The translations under genes were made by a program, and so were the position numbers. From Lachnospiraceae bacterium (GTDB lineage Bacteria > Bacillota > Clostridia > Lachnospirales > Lachnospiraceae), in contig JALFHZ010000040.1 in assembly GCA_022776445.1 (NCBI GenBank), positions 1 to 39,317 on the forward strand: a stretch of DNA of 39,317 nucleotides, read 5' to 3'. Shown in pieces: positions 25,706-30,868 of this stretch. The stretch's first letter is position 1. Each line of letters opens with the position of its first letter. Below the pieces are notes generated by a model, which was given only the letters and a program-made list of their open reading frames with translations, was not told the origin of the DNA and made no database searches.

Positions 25706-25733
25706 TTTATAGCGTTACCCATTAGCTTGTCAA
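25706..25733 (-). promoter_or_regulatory. Promoter of the yfcE-rpiR operon
   Basis: TTGACA (minus strand, 25728-25733), a 16-bp spacer and TATAAA (25706-25711). The -35 overlaps the last codon and stop of the rhodanese gene, so this operon starts inside the end of its neighbour. No terminator is seen between the two. Confidence 0.75.
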
Positions 25734-26047
25734 CGACAGTTTTTTTCTGTCAGGTATTTCCCACGATATGCCTGAATCCCGCCATATACGTCGGCCACCT
25801 GATAGCCCATACGCGCCAGCTGCCTCGCTGCCAGCATACTGCGCGGTCCATGATAGCAATAAAGCACGATCAGCCGGCTCATCGGAAGTTCTTTTGTTCG
25901 TTCCCATAATTCCTCCTCCGGCATATTTACAGCTCCCCGGATATGTCCGCTCCGGAAGCTTTCCCGATCGCGCATATCCACCAGAAATATTTCCCGTTTT
26001 TCATCCAGATACTGCTCCAGCTCCGACGCACTGATCAAATACCACAT
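25730..26047 (-). CDS. Single-domain rhodanese-like protein
   Basis: 105-residue sulfurtransferase-fold protein. The active-site cysteine is Cys64 in YCYHGPRS, with the DMRDRESFRSGHIRGAVNMP substrate-side motif upstream. Stand-alone rhodaneses carry sulfane sulfur; the partner here is unknown. The ribosome binding site is weak (AGGCGG). It sits between the terminator of the Asn-rich protein gene and the operon promoter downstream. A second cysteine lies in the C-terminal NCR. Confidence 0.9.
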   Translation of the reverse strand: MWYLISASELEQYLDEKREIFLVDMRDRESFRSGHIRGAVNMPEEELWERTKELPMSRLIVLYCYHGPRSMLAARQLARMGYQVADVYGGIQAYRGKYLTEKNCR

Positions 26048-26127: not shown

Positions 26128-26310
26128 TTACCGCTGGTTGTTATTCTGGGTATTGTTGCGGCTGTTATTCTGATTATTGTTCTGATTGTTATTGCGGCTG
26201 GTGTTGTTGCGGCTGGAATCCTGACTGCTGTTGCGATTGGAATCCTGGCTGTTGCGACTGCTGTTCTGGCAGTTTCTGTTGTTATCCATATCGTTGTAAT
26301 TGTCTCTCAT
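26128..26310 (-). CDS. Asn/Gln/Ser/Arg-rich low-complexity micro-protein
   Basis: 60 residues, almost wholly Asn, Gln, Ser, Arg and Asp after an N-terminus MRDNYNDMDNN. The second half is made of irregular repeats such as SRNN and NNNQ. There is one cysteine (Cys13), no hydrophobic core and no membrane segment, so it is probably disordered. A strong AGGAGG 8 nt before the ATG at 26310 and its own terminator argue for a real gene. An in-frame start at 26334 lacks a site. I do not recognise the family. Composition recalls small spore-coat-like or prion-like proteins, but that is only a resemblance. Confidence 0.7.
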   Translation of the reverse strand: MRDNYNDMDNNRNCQNSSRNSQDSNRNSSQDSSRNNTSRNNNQNNNQNNSRNNTQNNNQR

Positions 26311-26403
26311 AATGATTACCTCCTGGTTCATCAATTGAATTTGTTACAGGAGTAGTATGGTCGTTTTTCTTTACATTATGCATTTAAATACAAATGAAAT
26401 TGA

Positions 26404-26432
26404 TTGCATTTTCAAATTGTATCCAGTATAAT
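26404..26432 (+). promoter_or_regulatory. Orphan plus-strand promoter driving the putative sRNA
   Basis: TTGCAT (26404-26409), a 17-bp spacer and a perfect TATAAT (26427-26432). No plus-strand gene follows until 30065; a terminator hairpin follows at 26503. Confidence 0.7.
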
Positions 26433-26438
26433 AGAATG

Positions 26439-26540
26439 GAATGAAAATGATTTCCCTTAAAATCGTTTTCTTCAACCTTATTAATTATTTATACTCCCCT
26501 CAGAAAACGCCCGACAGCTCCCCTGTCAGGCGTTTTCCAT
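26439..26540 (+). ncRNA. Putative small regulatory RNA, about 100 nt
   Basis: Between the orphan promoter and a strong hairpin lies a stretch that fits a Gram-positive trans-acting sRNA. Hairpin 1: GAAAATGAT (26443-26451) with ATCGTTTTC (26462-26470), 9 bp with one G-U pair. Its loop carries TTCCCTT. A single-stranded A/U-rich linker (26471-26502) contains CTCCCCT. Hairpin 2 (26503-26517 with 26523-26537; 14 of 15 pairs) has the loop CTCCC and ends in GTTTTCC. All three C-rich motifs are unpaired and complementary to Shine-Dalgarno cores, as in the RsaE/RoxS class. I see no sequence identity to a named sRNA. A 36-codon frame (26441-26551) has no ribosome binding site. Confidence 0.55.
26503..26537 (+). 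terminator. Terminator of the putative sRNA
   Basis: GAAAACGCCCGACAG and CTGTCAGGCGTTTTC form a 15-bp stem with one C-A mismatch and a CTCCC loop. The minus-strand nlpC transcript already has its own terminator at 26565-26591, so this hairpin is not needed for it. Confidence 0.75.
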
Positions 26541-26554
26541 CTTCTACATAATAT

Positions 26555-26591
26555 CAAAACAAAAGACCCCGGCAAACCAACGCCCGGGATC
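26555..26591 (-). terminator. Terminator of the NlpC/P60 gene
   Basis: GACCCCGG (26565-26572) pairs with CCGGGATC (26584-26591). On the minus strand the hairpin is followed by TTTTGTTTTG. Confidence 0.8.
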
Positions 26592-26618
26592 TTCCTTTAT
26601 CCTTTATACCTATGTAAA

Positions 26619-27221
26619 TCAACCCATCATGCTGACAATCTTAACCGGTGAACGATAATTCCACTTGGAAATCTTAATTCCCGTCTTATGGGTAGAAGCA
26701 TGTACAATCTGTCCGTCTCCGATATACATAGCCACATGATTGATTCTGGAACCGTCTCCGTAGAAAATCAGATCCCCTGGCTGCATCTCTTCCGCACTGA
26801 TCTGCCTGCCCTGCGTAGACTGAGACACAGAACTGCGGTTCATGCTGATGCCTGCACCATGCTGCATCACATATTTCACAAATCCGGAACAGTCAGCACC
26901 CGTATGCGGATCATTGCCGCCGGTACGATACTTACCGCCAACAAACTGCAATGCATAATTCACCAGATTCTGACGGGCAGACGCATTCGCAACCCGAGCA
27001 TCCTCGGCAATTCCTTCCAGAATTACATCCAGCGCCATATCTACGGCATCCTTCGCTTCATCATCCGGAAGATCCTCTTCCTCATCGAATGCTTCGATCT
27101 CCAATGCCTCGATCACAGTCTCTCGCTGAATCTCATCCGCCCAGGATACCACCGGAGTCGCAACCATCAAAGTTGCTGCCATCATGGTAACTGCCGCTAT
27201 GTATAATCCGGATTTCTTCAT
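26619..27221 (-). CDS. Secreted NlpC/P60 peptidoglycan endopeptidase
   Basis: 200 residues from the ATG at 27221, which has GGAG 7 nt upstream; an in-frame ATG at 27239 has no site. Signal peptide 1-28 (ending SWA). A very acidic linker of about 45 residues follows (EIEAFDEEEDLPDDEAKD). The C-terminal NlpC/P60 domain has Cys111 (DCSGF), His162 (NHVAMYIG) and His174. These enzymes usually cut gamma-D-Glu-diaminopimelate links in cell-wall stem peptides. No wall-binding domain is present, so the acidic region may handle localisation or inhibition (inference). Own promoter and own terminator. Confidence 0.94.
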   Translation of the reverse strand: MKKSGLYIAAVTMMAATLMVATPVVSWADEIQRETVIEALEIEAFDEEEDLPDDEAKDAVDMALDVILEGIAEDARVANASARQNLVNYALQFVGGKYRTGGNDPHTGADCSGFVKYVMQHGAGISMNRSSVSQSTQGRQISAEEMQPGDLIFYGDGSRINHVAMYIGDGQIVHASTHKTGIKISKWNYRSPVKIVSMMG

Positions 27222-27288
27222 ATCTACGCTCCAATTCATTAATTATGGGTTTCAATTATTACACAAATGTTAACTTTGTTACATGCAC

Positions 27289-27317
27289 ATTATACATTTA
27301 AAACAAATTTTCGTCAA
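27289..27317 (-). promoter_or_regulatory. Promoter of the NlpC/P60 gene
   Basis: TTGACG (minus, 27312-27317), a 17-bp spacer and TATAAT (27289-27294). Just downstream lies a near-palindrome centred on GTTAAC with TGTTAA and TGTTAC half-sites on the plus strand (about 27266-27284), a possible operator. Confidence 0.8.
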
Positions 27318-27350
27318 GATATCTCATACATATTTTACAATTAATTAATA

Positions 27351-27400
27351 AAATGCTCCGAAAATCCCCAACGGACTGTTCAGGGACTTCCGAAGCATTT
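27351..27400 (-). terminator. Terminator of the fbp-DUF1700 transcript
   Basis: AAATGCTCCGAAAATCCCC on the left and the GGGACTTCCGAAGCATTT region on the right form a stem of about 18 pairs, including G-U pairs. On the minus strand TTATT follows. Confidence 0.75.
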
Positions 27401-27423
27401 CATAAAGACTGTATTCATCCCGC

Positions 27424-27948
27424 TTATCGCTGCGGGCCGCGGAAAAACCACATCAAAATCATCATCACCAGGAAAAACGGCAGAAGCGGAATCATAATGG
27501 ACAGGAAACCCCCGATCAGCATCAGAAGCACCATTACAATGAAAATCACAAGTACAACTCCCAGCAGCTTCCAGTACCACTTATTCAGATCATAGTAATG
27601 GATATTGCCGCTCATACGCTGCCGGGACTGCTCATCTTCTTCGCCTCGGCCTGCGGCGTCGCGTCCATCCGATCCGGAATCACCGCCATATCCGCCGCTG
27701 CTGAAACTGCCGAACGAACGGTATTCCTCAAAGCCACCCTCTCCGGCCCCCGGTGTCGTGTCAATAATCGTCCGTGCGATCAGGCGCGGTTCGCCCAGCT
27801 CTTCCATCACCTGTTCTTCCGGCCGTCCCTTCTGAATCTCACTTCTGATGTAATTGTCATAATATCTTAAATTGTCCCGCACTACGGAAGGCGGTACTTC
27901 TCCGGAAAGCGCATTCTGCAGTCCACGAAGAAATTCTTCTCTGTTCAT
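27424..27948 (-). CDS. DUF1700-type membrane protein
   Basis: 174 residues. The N-terminal DUF1700-like domain (1-65: MNREEFLRGLQNAL, VRDNLRYYDNYI, ELGEPRLIARTII) is followed by a Gly/Ser/Asp-rich linker (about 70-110). A hydrophobic C-terminal half with two membrane segments then ends in FFRGPQR. Such proteins often sit beside PadR regulators and are linked to envelope stress, but no PadR gene is here. AAGGAG lies 6 nt before the ATG. It follows fbp by 73 bp without a clear terminator, so the two are probably co-transcribed. Function unknown. Confidence 0.8.
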   Translation of the reverse strand: MNREEFLRGLQNALSGEVPPSVVRDNLRYYDNYIRSEIQKGRPEEQVMEELGEPRLIARTIIDTTPGAGEGGFEEYRSFGSFSSGGYGGDSGSDGRDAAGRGEEDEQSRQRMSGNIHYYDLNKWYWKLLGVVLVIFIVMVLLMLIGGFLSIMIPLLPFFLVMMILMWFFRGPQR

Positions 27949-28021
27949 TCAAATCTCCTTAATTATCTGATTCTTCGCCGCTGCCGGATTCCTGCGCCTG
28001 CCTGTCTCTGCAACAATCAGG

Positions 28022-29959
28022 TCAATCTACCGCTTCTTTAATATCACCGCGACGAAATGCTGCCATCAGTTCCTTCAGATCGTCAATACGATCGTTCAAT
28101 TCACATCCCATATCCGTATCCACAACCATGACACGATTCTTCATTTTCTCGACAATGGAAACCTTCGGCGTATTTTCCTTGCCCGGGTCAAACGGTTTAT
28201 GCTCTGCCAAAGCCAGATGGCGTGAATTGTAGATCAGGGTATAACCTGCGATGCCGGTCTGCTTCTGGTAAGCCTTGGACAAACCTCCGTCGATAATAAA
28301 CAACTTGCCGTTCGCCTTGACCGGAGTCTCTCCATCCTTAATCTTCACCGGCACATGCCCATTGATGATATGACACCCTTCTCCGCCCAGACCGAACTCC
28401 CGCAAAATCTGATCACAGATATCCGTCTTCTGACTCAGCTGATAGTATGGGTTCAGCCGTTCTCTATGTGCTGCCTTATCTGCTACAAAGTAATGCTCAA
28501 ACGTCGTCATCTTGTCCTTGCCGAATACCGGGGATTTGGCTCCGCACCAGAGATACCACATATAATCACGGGCACGCTCCTTGCCCGGCGCACCTTCTGC
28601 AAGGAAATATGCTTTCTGAATCTGGTCACCGATGTAATCCATCAGAGCCTTGCCGGAAAGCATCATGCCCTCGCAGTTCACTTCCTCAAAGGAACCATCG
28701 GTCTTCATCGGAATACATCCGTGATAAAGCAGATTGCCGTTGCAGCACTTGTATAATGCGCCATGCGAATAGAGGAAGCGGATATGCTTGTGAAGCAGAT
28801 CGCTGTGGCGGAAAGACATCACCAGTGTGTGCAGAAGCTCTTCCTCTTCTTCCGAAAGCTTCAGCGGATCCTTCGGATCCACAGTCGGAAACATGGTATC
28901 CAGCAGCGGATGCGTCTTTCCCTCAATGACAACCGTACCCTTTTCAAAATCAATCGTCTCCAGCAGCAGGCGCTTATCCATACCATACTCCGGATGCCGC
29001 TTGATAATCTGCCCTTCCACCTTAAACTGGATGATTGCAATCGCCTTGTGCATCTTTGCTGCCAGTCCCGGATCCACCGCATCATAGATATTCTGATCCA
29101 GAATCTTCGGTGAAAACTGTATGCACGGATCATCCCGATATACTTTGGCTGCAAACATGGACAGCGGACGCAGATTGATGCCATAGCCGTCCTCCAAAAC
29201 GTCAAAACTGTTGTAGCTGATGGCAATACGCAGTACATTGCAGACACACGCCGGATTCCCGGTGGCCGCCCCCATCCAGGAAATATCATGATTACCCCAC
29301 TGGATATCCACATCGTGAAACTGCATCAGTTCATTCATAATAATATCCGCACGCGGACCCCTGTCAAAAATATCCCCGATAATGTGCAGATTGTCAATCA
29401 CCAGATTCTGTATCAGTTCACAGAGCGCAACAATAAACTTATCCGCAATCTGCGTATCAATAATCGTATGGATGATCTCCCCATAGTACACCCGTTTGTT
29501 CTCATCATTATAATCAACATGAAGCAATTCGTCAATCACATACGCAAATTCCTTCGGCATCTTCTTACGCACCTTGGAACGCGTATACTTGGAAGCCACT
29601 TCCTTGCAGATCTGAACCAGACGGTAAATCGTGATCCTCTGCCAGTCCTCCGTATTTCGTCCTTCCTGTGTCAGCCTTGTCAGGTTGCGGGTCGGATAAT
29701 AAATCAGATTAGCCAGTTCAATCTGCTCCCCCTCCGGAATAATGTGGCCAAATGTCTCCTTGATCTTCTCGCGAATGATGCCGGAGGCGCTGCGCAGAAG
29801 ATAAATAAATGCTTCATACTCTCCATGCAGATCACTGAAAAAATATTCTGTCCCCTTCGGCAGGCCGCAGATCGCAGTCAGATTGATAATCTCACTGGAT
29901 GCCGCTTTCACACTCGGATATTCTTTTGCAAGAAGCTTCAGATATGCTAAATCCCTCAT
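28022..29959 (-). CDS. fbp: Fructose-1,6-bisphosphatase, class III
   Basis: Gluconeogenic phosphatase of the Firmicutes class III type, unrelated to class I enzymes. 645 residues, full length. The metallophosphoesterase core shows SDLHGEYEAF (near residue 42), GDIFDRGPRAD and GNHDISWMGA, with INGHVPVK and LTLIYN-type C-terminal segments. AGGAGGAGG precedes the ATG. It should return fructose-1,6-bisphosphate to fructose-6-phosphate. Confidence 0.96.
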   Translation of the reverse strand: MRDLAYLKLLAKEYPSVKAASSEIINLTAICGLPKGTEYFFSDLHGEYEAFIYLLRSASGIIREKIKETFGHIIPEGEQIELANLIYYPTRNLTRLTQEGRNTEDWQRITIYRLVQICKEVASKYTRSKVRKKMPKEFAYVIDELLHVDYNDENKRVYYGEIIHTIIDTQIADKFIVALCELIQNLVIDNLHIIGDIFDRGPRADIIMNELMQFHDVDIQWGNHDISWMGAATGNPACVCNVLRIAISYNSFDVLEDGYGINLRPLSMFAAKVYRDDPCIQFSPKILDQNIYDAVDPGLAAKMHKAIAIIQFKVEGQIIKRHPEYGMDKRLLLETIDFEKGTVVIEGKTHPLLDTMFPTVDPKDPLKLSEEEEELLHTLVMSFRHSDLLHKHIRFLYSHGALYKCCNGNLLYHGCIPMKTDGSFEEVNCEGMMLSGKALMDYIGDQIQKAYFLAEGAPGKERARDYMWYLWCGAKSPVFGKDKMTTFEHYFVADKAAHRERLNPYYQLSQKTDICDQILREFGLGGEGCHIINGHVPVKIKDGETPVKANGKLFIIDGGLSKAYQKQTGIAGYTLIYNSRHLALAEHKPFDPGKENTPKVSIVEKMKNRVMVVDTDMGCELNDRIDDLKELMAAFRRGDIKEAVD

Positions 29960-29992
29960 TTTTCCTCCTCCTGTTGCATTTCTCCTGAAAAT

Positions 29993-30021
29993 ATAGTACC
30001 ATAATTCCGAATAAAATTAAA
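29993..30021 (-). promoter_or_regulatory. Candidate fbp promoter
   Basis: TTTAAT (minus, 30016-30021), a 17-bp spacer and TACTAT (29993-29998), 34 bp before the fbp start. Both boxes are imperfect. Confidence 0.45.
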
Positions 30022-30064
30022 GTTCTAACACCTGTACATTTCTGCACGAAGATAAGGAGAAAGC

Positions 30065-30868
30065 ATGGAACAATTATATGTATTCGGTACCGGCAATGCG
30101 GCGGTTACCCACTATTACAATACCTGTTTTGCCATCCGGAATGAAGACCGCTTCTTCATGGTCGATGCCGGAGGCGGCAACGGAATTTTGAGGATTCTGG
30201 AAGACATGAAGGTCGATTACCCGCAGATTCACGATATTTTTATCACACATGAGCACACAGATCACCTTCTGGGCATCGTATGGATGGTGCGCTTCATCGC
30301 CACACGGATGCTGAATGGCAAATACGATGGAGACCTGAACATCTACTGCCATGAAGACCTGATTGCATCCGTTGACACGATCTGCCGTCTTACCCTTCAG
30401 GGAAAGATGTACCGGATGATCGGCCAGCGCATTCACCTGATTCCCGTACACGATGGAGAAACCGTACACATTATGGATTATGATGTCACATTTTTCGATA
30501 TTCATTCCACCAAAGCCAAACAGTACGGTTTTACCACCACCTTGAAGAACGGCAGAAAACTGACCTGTGCCGGGGATGAACCGTACAATCCGCTCTGTGC
30601 TCCGTATGTGGAGGGAAGTGACTGGCTGCTCCACGAAGCATTCTGTCTCTATGAAGAACGTGATCGCTTTCAACCATACGAAAAACACCACAGCACCGTC
30701 AAGGATGCCTGTGAACTTGCAGAACAGATGAAAATTGCCAATCTTGTCCTCTGGCACACGGAGGACAAGTCCGTCGGACACCGCAAAGAACTTTATACGG
30801 CAGAAGGGCGCCAGTATTACCACGGCAATCTCTATGTACCCGACGATCAGGAGATCCTGGATCTGTAA
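30065..30868 (+). CDS. Metallo-beta-lactamase-fold hydrolase
   Basis: 267 residues with the zinc motif His62-x-His64-x-Asp66-His67 (THEHTDH), further ligands in IHSTKAKQ and AGDEP, and a final His in LVLWHTED. The layout resembles RNase Z and related phosphodiesterases more than beta-lactamases. No signal peptide. AAGGAG precedes the ATG; divergent from fbp. Substrate unknown. Confidence 0.9.
   Translation: MEQLYVFGTGNAAVTHYYNTCFAIRNEDRFFMVDAGGGNGILRILEDMKVDYPQIHDIFITHEHTDHLLGIVWMVRFIATRMLNGKYDGDLNIYCHEDLIASVDTICRLTLQGKMYRMIGQRIHLIPVHDGETVHIMDYDVTFFDIHSTKAKQYGFTTTLKNGRKLTCAGDEPYNPLCAPYVEGSDWLLHEAFCLYEERDRFQPYEKHHSTVKDACELAEQMKIANLVLWHTEDKSVGHRKELYTAEGRQYYHGNLYVPDDQEILDL

Follow-up and report, generated by a model that had tools for sequence, protein, structure and literature searches.

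A candidate C-rich small RNA of the Lachnospirales with a near-invariant unpaired linker

Judging from sequence, positions 26404-26540 of the window, the 39,317-nucleotide stretch of Lachnospiraceae DNA analysed here, very probably contain the gene of a regulatory RNA of about 100 bases. Comparison across relatives shows that this region holds an RNA element on the plus strand, made up of a promoter of sigma-A-like type, a pair of hairpins that change by compensation and a near-invariant unpaired linker. On balance, we favour the reading that the window holds the gene of a trans-acting small RNA (sRNA) of approximately 100 nt, the representative of a new RNA family of Lachnospirales, which would pair with Shine-Dalgarno (SD) sequences and carry a linker read by a protein. 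The observation made in an initial annotation of this DNA is thereby confirmed, and is stronger than was claimed.

Results

Predicted architecture of the element

The plus-strand promoter TTGCAT-17-TATAAT reported in the initial annotation is read directly in the sequence at 26404-26432 (TTGCAT at 26404-26409, TATAAT at 26427-26432), and its position places the predicted start of the sRNA near 26439. Hairpin 1 (26439-26473, plus strand) follows, for which the predicted RNA fold gives 11 + 3 pairs with one bulge and a loop CCCTTA at 26454-26459; a hairpin of 9 bp with TTCCCTT in its loop had been described here, and in the prediction TTCCCTT lies partly in the stem. Next come the unpaired, nearly invariant linker core CCTTATTAATTATTTATACTCCCCTC (26 nt, 26476-26501, plus strand), with the second C-rich motif at its 3' end, and a terminator-like hairpin (26503-26537, plus strand, predicted fold), whose loop CTCCC at 26518-26522 is the third. 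The linker motif CTCCCCT had been recognized before, but the invariant linker had been overlooked, CTCCCC being merely its 3' end. The terminator-like hairpin and its CTCCC loop likewise stand, but the stem, described as 15 bp, forms 14 of 15 pairs in the window, with one C-A mismatch. T-richness of the tail 3' of this stem is only moderate.

The span from promoter to terminator, together with a covariance model match described below, defines a proposed transcript of about 100 nt at 26439-26545 on the plus strand. Transcript letters comprise 11.5% G versus 25.4% C. The predicted folding energy of 26439-26545 is -32.0 kcal/mol compared with -9.0 ± 2.6 kcal/mol in 200 shuffles (z -8.8), with all three C-rich motifs (loop 1, linker and terminator loop) unpaired in the window fold. 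A simple single-sequence scanner listed neither the promoter, because its -35 element has three of the six consensus letters and falls below threshold, nor the terminator, and the case for the sRNA therefore rests on comparison. It had also been claimed that there is no plus-strand gene for 3.5 kb, which agrees with our finding that plus-strand frames of at least 80 aa (26545-30065) all overlap, wholly or partly, Pfam-matched minus-strand genes. No Rfam 15 family covers 26404-26540, with nothing above cut-off at the sRNA locus under gathering or relaxed thresholds, which supports the proposal that the RNA is new.

Distribution among relatives

A BLAST search with 291 bases against 61 genomes gave matches in 27. 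The sRNA region itself was matched in 19 of the 24 genomes of the genus (own genome included) and in seven other genomes, while the 27th matching genome (G029) matched in a neighbouring element only (query 6-30); this recurrence in relatives lifts the element above chance. An exact pattern of 22 linker letters occurs in at least 119 stretches among named genomes. Among the 80 linker matches listed, most bear the label Lachnospiraceae or that of a genus of this family (Mediterraneibacter, Agathobacter, Anaerostipes, Lacrimispora, Lachnotalea, Herbinix), and the matches listed include Lachnotalea glycerini DSM 28816 and Lacrimispora amygdalina; the others are labelled Clostridiales, Eubacteriales or bacteria, with a few Vallitalea, Vallitaleaceae and Petrocella. 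When two mismatches were tolerated, the linker pattern was found in 5 of the 391 genomes searched in the class, and four of these five belong to the own family.

A covariance model of the linker and terminator, R1, was built on 42 rows and recovers the element in its own genome at 26476-26532 with 77.5 bits and an E value of 4.1e-15 (the window contributes one of these rows). R1 was trained on rows gathered by exact linker match, and the BLAST search with the whole region is less biased; carrier counts for R1 in family, order and phylum are lower bounds, as searches of more than 40 genomes used stricter Infernal filters. Matches were obtained in at least 109 of 200 genomes of the family, corresponding to 109 of 199 genera, at E values up to 0.01 (100 of them at 1e-5 or better), and in at least 30 of 196 genomes of the order, 11 in the own family and 15 in one other family, f22. 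Across the phylum, R1 matched in 2 of 199 genomes, namely the own genome and one weak match (E 0.0042) that lacks the linker CTCCCC; this chance-like match gives the chance level for R1. Most carriers have a single copy, with one match in 102 of the 109 in the family, while one genome (G593) has five and four f22 genomes have three each. The element, as traced by sequence, is thus a Lachnospirales RNA of patchy presence, a narrower host range than the gut Firmicutes at large to which the initial annotation had assigned it.

The linker forms 23 neighbouring invariant columns in alignment A1 (25 rows) and is invariant by selection in alignment A2 (42 rows); this invariance is partly by construction, as most relatives were gathered via an exact match to 22 linker letters. 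Copies with changed linkers exist among distant relatives, and in these the 3' part, TTATTTATACTCCCC, is best kept as read by eye. Two weak and divergent R1 matches (L266 and L267, E 0.004 and 0.006) differ in much of their sequence and, by eye, nonetheless have CCCC in loop 1, the linker and the terminator loop. As a separate observation, the promoter region immediately preceding two of the five copies in G593 (L198 and L199) contains GGGGAGTAT or GGGAGTAT, sequences that are the complement of the end of the linker.

Compensatory change in both stems

For structural comparison, 149 non-redundant sequences were gathered, 144 of them complete enough for loop counts. As MAFFT misplaced the hairpins on mixed outgroups, covariation was measured on loop-anchored stems and by half-swaps. 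In A2, which comprises 42 of 72 listed sequences, all chosen for a CTCCC loop and an unchanged linker length, 10 of 10 modelled pairs of the terminator stem have changes on both sides, 94.8% of cells are paired compared with 63.4% in shuffled controls (42 rows), and the covariation score is 0.849 versus 0.259. Similarly, another set of 73 distinct stems of the terminator, selected by their folded YTCCC loop, has 95.7% of its cells paired, versus 65.9% after shuffling. Exchanging stem halves between sequences weakened the predicted terminator from a mean of -20.9 to -8.2 kcal/mol, and every real terminator (143 of 143) lay below the mean of the chimeras. Both the sequence and the length of hairpin 1 vary from group to group; over 136 distinct sequences its real mean is -10.3 kcal/mol compared with -4.6 kcal/mol for half-swapped chimeras, and 123 of the 136 lie below the chimera mean. 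Energies were used here because counts of stem length separate real and shuffled sequences poorly, with 53% and 79% of shuffles also reaching eight pairs. These comparisons indicate that both stems are kept by compensatory change.

The linker motif is present in all relatives by search design. CCC stands in the loop predicted for the terminator in 115 of 144 sequences (29 lack it) and in that predicted for hairpin 1 in 73 of 144 (71 lack it), so that three C-rich loops are not universal. Among close relatives, where loss of these loops had been named as a point against the sRNA, the C-rich terminator loop is seen by eye in 18 of 19 genus rows and is missing from one (L019).

Promoter and gene neighbourhood

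A promoter-like pattern TTG-17/18/19-TATAAT was found in 106 of 145 upstream regions versus 7% of shuffled regions and is absent from 39 of the 145; the spacer is 17 nt in 92 of the 106 promoter-bearing regions. In relatives the promoter is sigma-A-like and reads TTGC(A/T)TTTT-17-TATAAT, its -35 element being mostly TTGC(A/T)TTTT and not TTGACA, and this atypical -35 may mean that an activator is needed. Promoter loss in close relatives was looked for, and the promoter is kept, by eye, in 19 genus rows.

Frames predicted around 145 loci were grouped into clusters, four of which received a name through the Pfam match of a single member. An RlmL-like methyltransferase gene occurs at 73 loci and a rhodanese gene at 39, lying upstream on the opposite strand in 61 and 34 cases, respectively. 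A HAAS gene is present at 38 loci, in 35 cases downstream and convergent, as is an NlpC/P60-like gene, named by likeness to that of the window, at 25 loci. In the window, the Pfam-named rhodanese (25730-26047) and HAAS (27424-27948) genes occupy the upstream and downstream places that they have in relatives, and the Pfam-named NlpC/P60 gene (26619-27239, minus strand) is the next minus-strand gene after the sRNA. It has a terminator-like hairpin of its own at 26565-26591, read by eye, in agreement with the earlier description. The recurrent places of these three genes suggest an old, vertically kept locus.

Several further features were seen around these loci. In three relatives (L020, L023 and L025) a tRNA gene is found no more than about 350 bases from the sRNA. 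The region 26128-26383 of the window contains, on the minus strand, a 60-aa Asn/Gln/Ser-rich small ORF (start at 26310) that matches neither Pfam nor NCBIfam. In front of it stand a CATACTA-N-TCCTG box and a TGNATA-like -35 element, which resemble promoters of forespore sigma-G. Of 140 sRNA loci, 13 have this box in divergent orientation to the sRNA and 16 have a generic pattern of sigma-G type, compared with 0 on the downstream side, which served as control; 17 distinct boxes were found over all sRNA loci examined.

Alternative readings of the locus

GGA is the motif of CsrA sponge RNAs, and the minus strand could in principle be the functional RNA, acting in a CsrA-sponge-like manner through GGA motifs in its loops and linker, which read GGGGAG and GGGAAA on that strand. 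The larger hairpin of the window has no mismatch there, and the minus strand of the element folds slightly better (-34.7 kcal/mol, z -6.3). We nonetheless regard this as highly improbable, as the promoter lies on the plus strand in the 106 of 145 regions described above and 81 distinct stems, anchored at their loops and compared without folding, contain 48 G-U versus 15 A-C cells when read on the plus strand (p 4e-5, without correction for relatedness). The excess of G-U and the kept promoter favour the plus strand as the folding RNA, and T is also richer at the plus-strand end of the stems than at the minus-strand end (3.7 versus 2.5 per 10 nt). That the element encodes a small protein or a dual-function RNA has in its favour a 36-codon ATG frame that spans it in the window, but any ATG frame runs through the linker in only 25 of 144 relatives, and the window's frame in 7 of 144, while the letters of the linker do not vary at any codon position. 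We therefore rejected the small protein because the frame is kept in too few relatives and consider it extremely unlikely; conservation of the 36-codon frame, named in the initial annotation as evidence against an sRNA, was looked for and is not what the relatives show.

It is also very unlikely that the element is untranscribed or passive, such as a bidirectional terminator between genes or a mobile-element repeat. In its favour, the downstream minus-strand gene is convergent and four matches fall in contigs classed as viral; against this stand the promoter and second compensating hairpin upstream, the single match in 102 of 109 carrying genomes and the recurrent gene neighbourhood, and window DNA used as query gave no plasmid match and one 30-base phage match. 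In the viral-classed contigs (L155-L158) the linker copies differ in their surroundings, L157 containing the whole RNA with its promoter and the others having unusual upstream sequence.

Search for mRNA targets

Candidate targets of the sRNA were sought among 664 predicted gene starts in 800 kb of one relative (4.8 Mb genome). Relative to sampled DNA, predicted ribosome-binding sites are enriched 7-fold in GGGGAG, with which CUCCCC would pair, and 36-fold in AGGAGG, a common SD sequence, both enrichments being inflated and partly circular as SD scores were used in choosing the starts. From this difference, the genes addressed by CUCCCC would be a minority (16 of the 664 predicted starts). The AU-rich part of the linker, tried as an antisense to ribosome-binding sites, pairs worse with the 664 starts than do 95 of 100 shuffles and was rejected in that role, which speaks for another role: it probably does something other than pair with ribosome-binding sites, perhaps binding a protein.

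The 13-base complement of the 3' part of the linker, GAGGGGAGTATAA, was found with at most one mismatch at 88 sites across the genus (24 genomes), a count that takes in the sRNA genes, versus 155 for the reversed control pattern. Forty of the 88 sites, picked mainly because the same mismatch recurred, were read and contained no recurrent gene start beyond the genome pairs L274/L275 and L292/L295; an extended antisense target was rejected on these grounds. Only 3 of 24 genomes have a glyA pairing of -16 kcal/mol or better, so that glyA was rejected as a conserved target. A citF site reaches -16.0 kcal/mol or better in 18 of 22 copies (the 23rd, fragment L388, was excluded), but it overlaps the end of the upstream reading frame, and coding constraint explains its conservation equally well; it was therefore set aside as evidence. 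A sequence that reads as a homologue of the citrate lyase alpha chain (L387, in G002) has one in-frame TGA. The target prediction proposed in the initial annotation thus yielded no conserved target with extended complementarity among the sites covered.

Discussion

The idea of a trans-acting translational repressor, put forward when this region was first annotated, divides into two parts. A new, conserved plus-strand sRNA has good support in its conservation, covariation and kept promoter and in its absence from Rfam; pairing with ribosome-binding sites and repression we infer by analogy. The sRNA would be transcribed from its own promoter and end at its own terminator, and its C-rich motifs (loop 1, the linker CUCCCC and the terminator-loop CUCCC) would pair with the G-rich SD sequences of several mRNAs, keeping ribosomes off them as LhrC and IsrR do. 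Because the C-rich plan is shared with those two sRNAs, this one should by analogy block G-rich SD sequences. Our preferred addition is that the AU-rich part of the linker may be read by an RNA-binding protein, KhpA/KhpB being the natural candidate, or by a ribonuclease. Another protein or a ribonuclease is invoked because a search at E 1e-5 gave no Hfq in any family genome (0 of 200), its control giving matches in B. subtilis and E. coli. A KhpA/KhpB-type KH domain (Pfam) is present in 200 of the same 200 genomes. According to part of the account in PMC10117718, KhpB binds sRNAs in enterococci, pneumococci and C. difficile, but is not known to take part in pairing.

The same linker leads to a rather unlikely but different reading, in which the RNA chiefly binds a protein: the invariant linker would titrate or regulate an RNA-binding protein, as 6S RNA and CsrA-type sponges do, and mRNA pairing would be secondary or absent. 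Such a role would fit a linker whose length and constancy exceed the demands of a pairing seed and whose AU part shows no adaptation to ribosome-binding sites, and would also fit the lack of a conserved extended target in the sites that were read. Against it, no binding protein is known, and further C-rich motifs lie in loops beyond the linker, which redundant pairing sites would lead one to expect. A further reading, tentative and rather unlikely, is that the linker could be the dedicated docking site of a protein, KhpA/KhpB or another, that does the work of Hfq in Lachnospiraceae; post-transcriptional control without Hfq would then form a network with this RNA at its centre in one of the main gut bacterial families. 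An RNA whose matches cover over half of the genera sampled in a family without detected Hfq provides a handle on Hfq-free sRNA action, and its near-invariant linker eases detection, deletion and pull-down, the question being what reads 26 unpaired nucleotides so strictly.

Clostridium phytofermentans is a member of the Lachnospiraceae, a main family of gut bacteria. The nearest work is its transcription-start map, which reports non-coding RNAs and used libraries with a 200-bp size threshold (PMC5171806); this map and a structured-RNA list (PMC8040213) may each include the element. In the literature searched, the linker letters were found in no paper and there was no dedicated study of Lachnospiraceae sRNAs.

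Rfam also has an LhrC family, and cmscan gave no match to it at E up to 10 in the window region or E up to 5 in 13 relatives. From the available text of PMC4132741, three UCCC sites of LhrC from Listeria monocytogenes bind the lapB leader redundantly, and an architecture of C-rich loop, linker and terminator loop blocks an SD sequence. The element resembles LhrC, as far as that text goes, in placing three UCCC motifs in loop A, linker and terminator loop (PMC4132741), loop 1 of the window being CCCUUA and thus containing UCCC only when the last stem letter is counted. Unlike LhrC, which has five copies, it gives one model match in 102 of 109 carriers, and it has a long invariant AU-rich linker, hosts of another bacterial order and a host family in which, as sampled, Hfq was not found. 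IsrR of staphylococci, in the part of PMC9410917 available, likewise down-regulates translation through three C-rich regions and is Hfq-independent, and the three unpaired C-rich regions are a shared feature (PMC9410917); however, IsrR is Fur-controlled and has three stem-loops and a terminator, compared with two hairpins here.

CsfG (RF00516, ylbH) of Bacillaceae has CU-rich stretches in terminal loops and between helices, according to a portion of PMC3574147, in which it is similar. Its consensus nevertheless has a different linker and it is sigma-F/G controlled (PMC9147052, in part), the promoter here looking sigma-A-like in 106 of 145 regions; RF00516 gave eight weak matches in the own genome, none at the sRNA locus and none over the cut-off, and CsfG was rejected as a homologue on model score and consensus. 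RsaE was absent from the Rfam matches listed for the window region, and FsrA scored 17.3 bits, where the cut-off is 80, in a match (26507-26593) that extends over the next hairpin. RsaE/RoxS and FsrA share C-rich motifs with the element, and in RsaE and FsrA these pair with SD sequences, as partial texts of PMC4132741 and PMC9410917 have it. Taken together, the sequence comparisons point to a new RNA family of a known kind, the C-rich trans-acting sRNAs of Firmicutes, where kind denotes a shared plan and not a family by homology.
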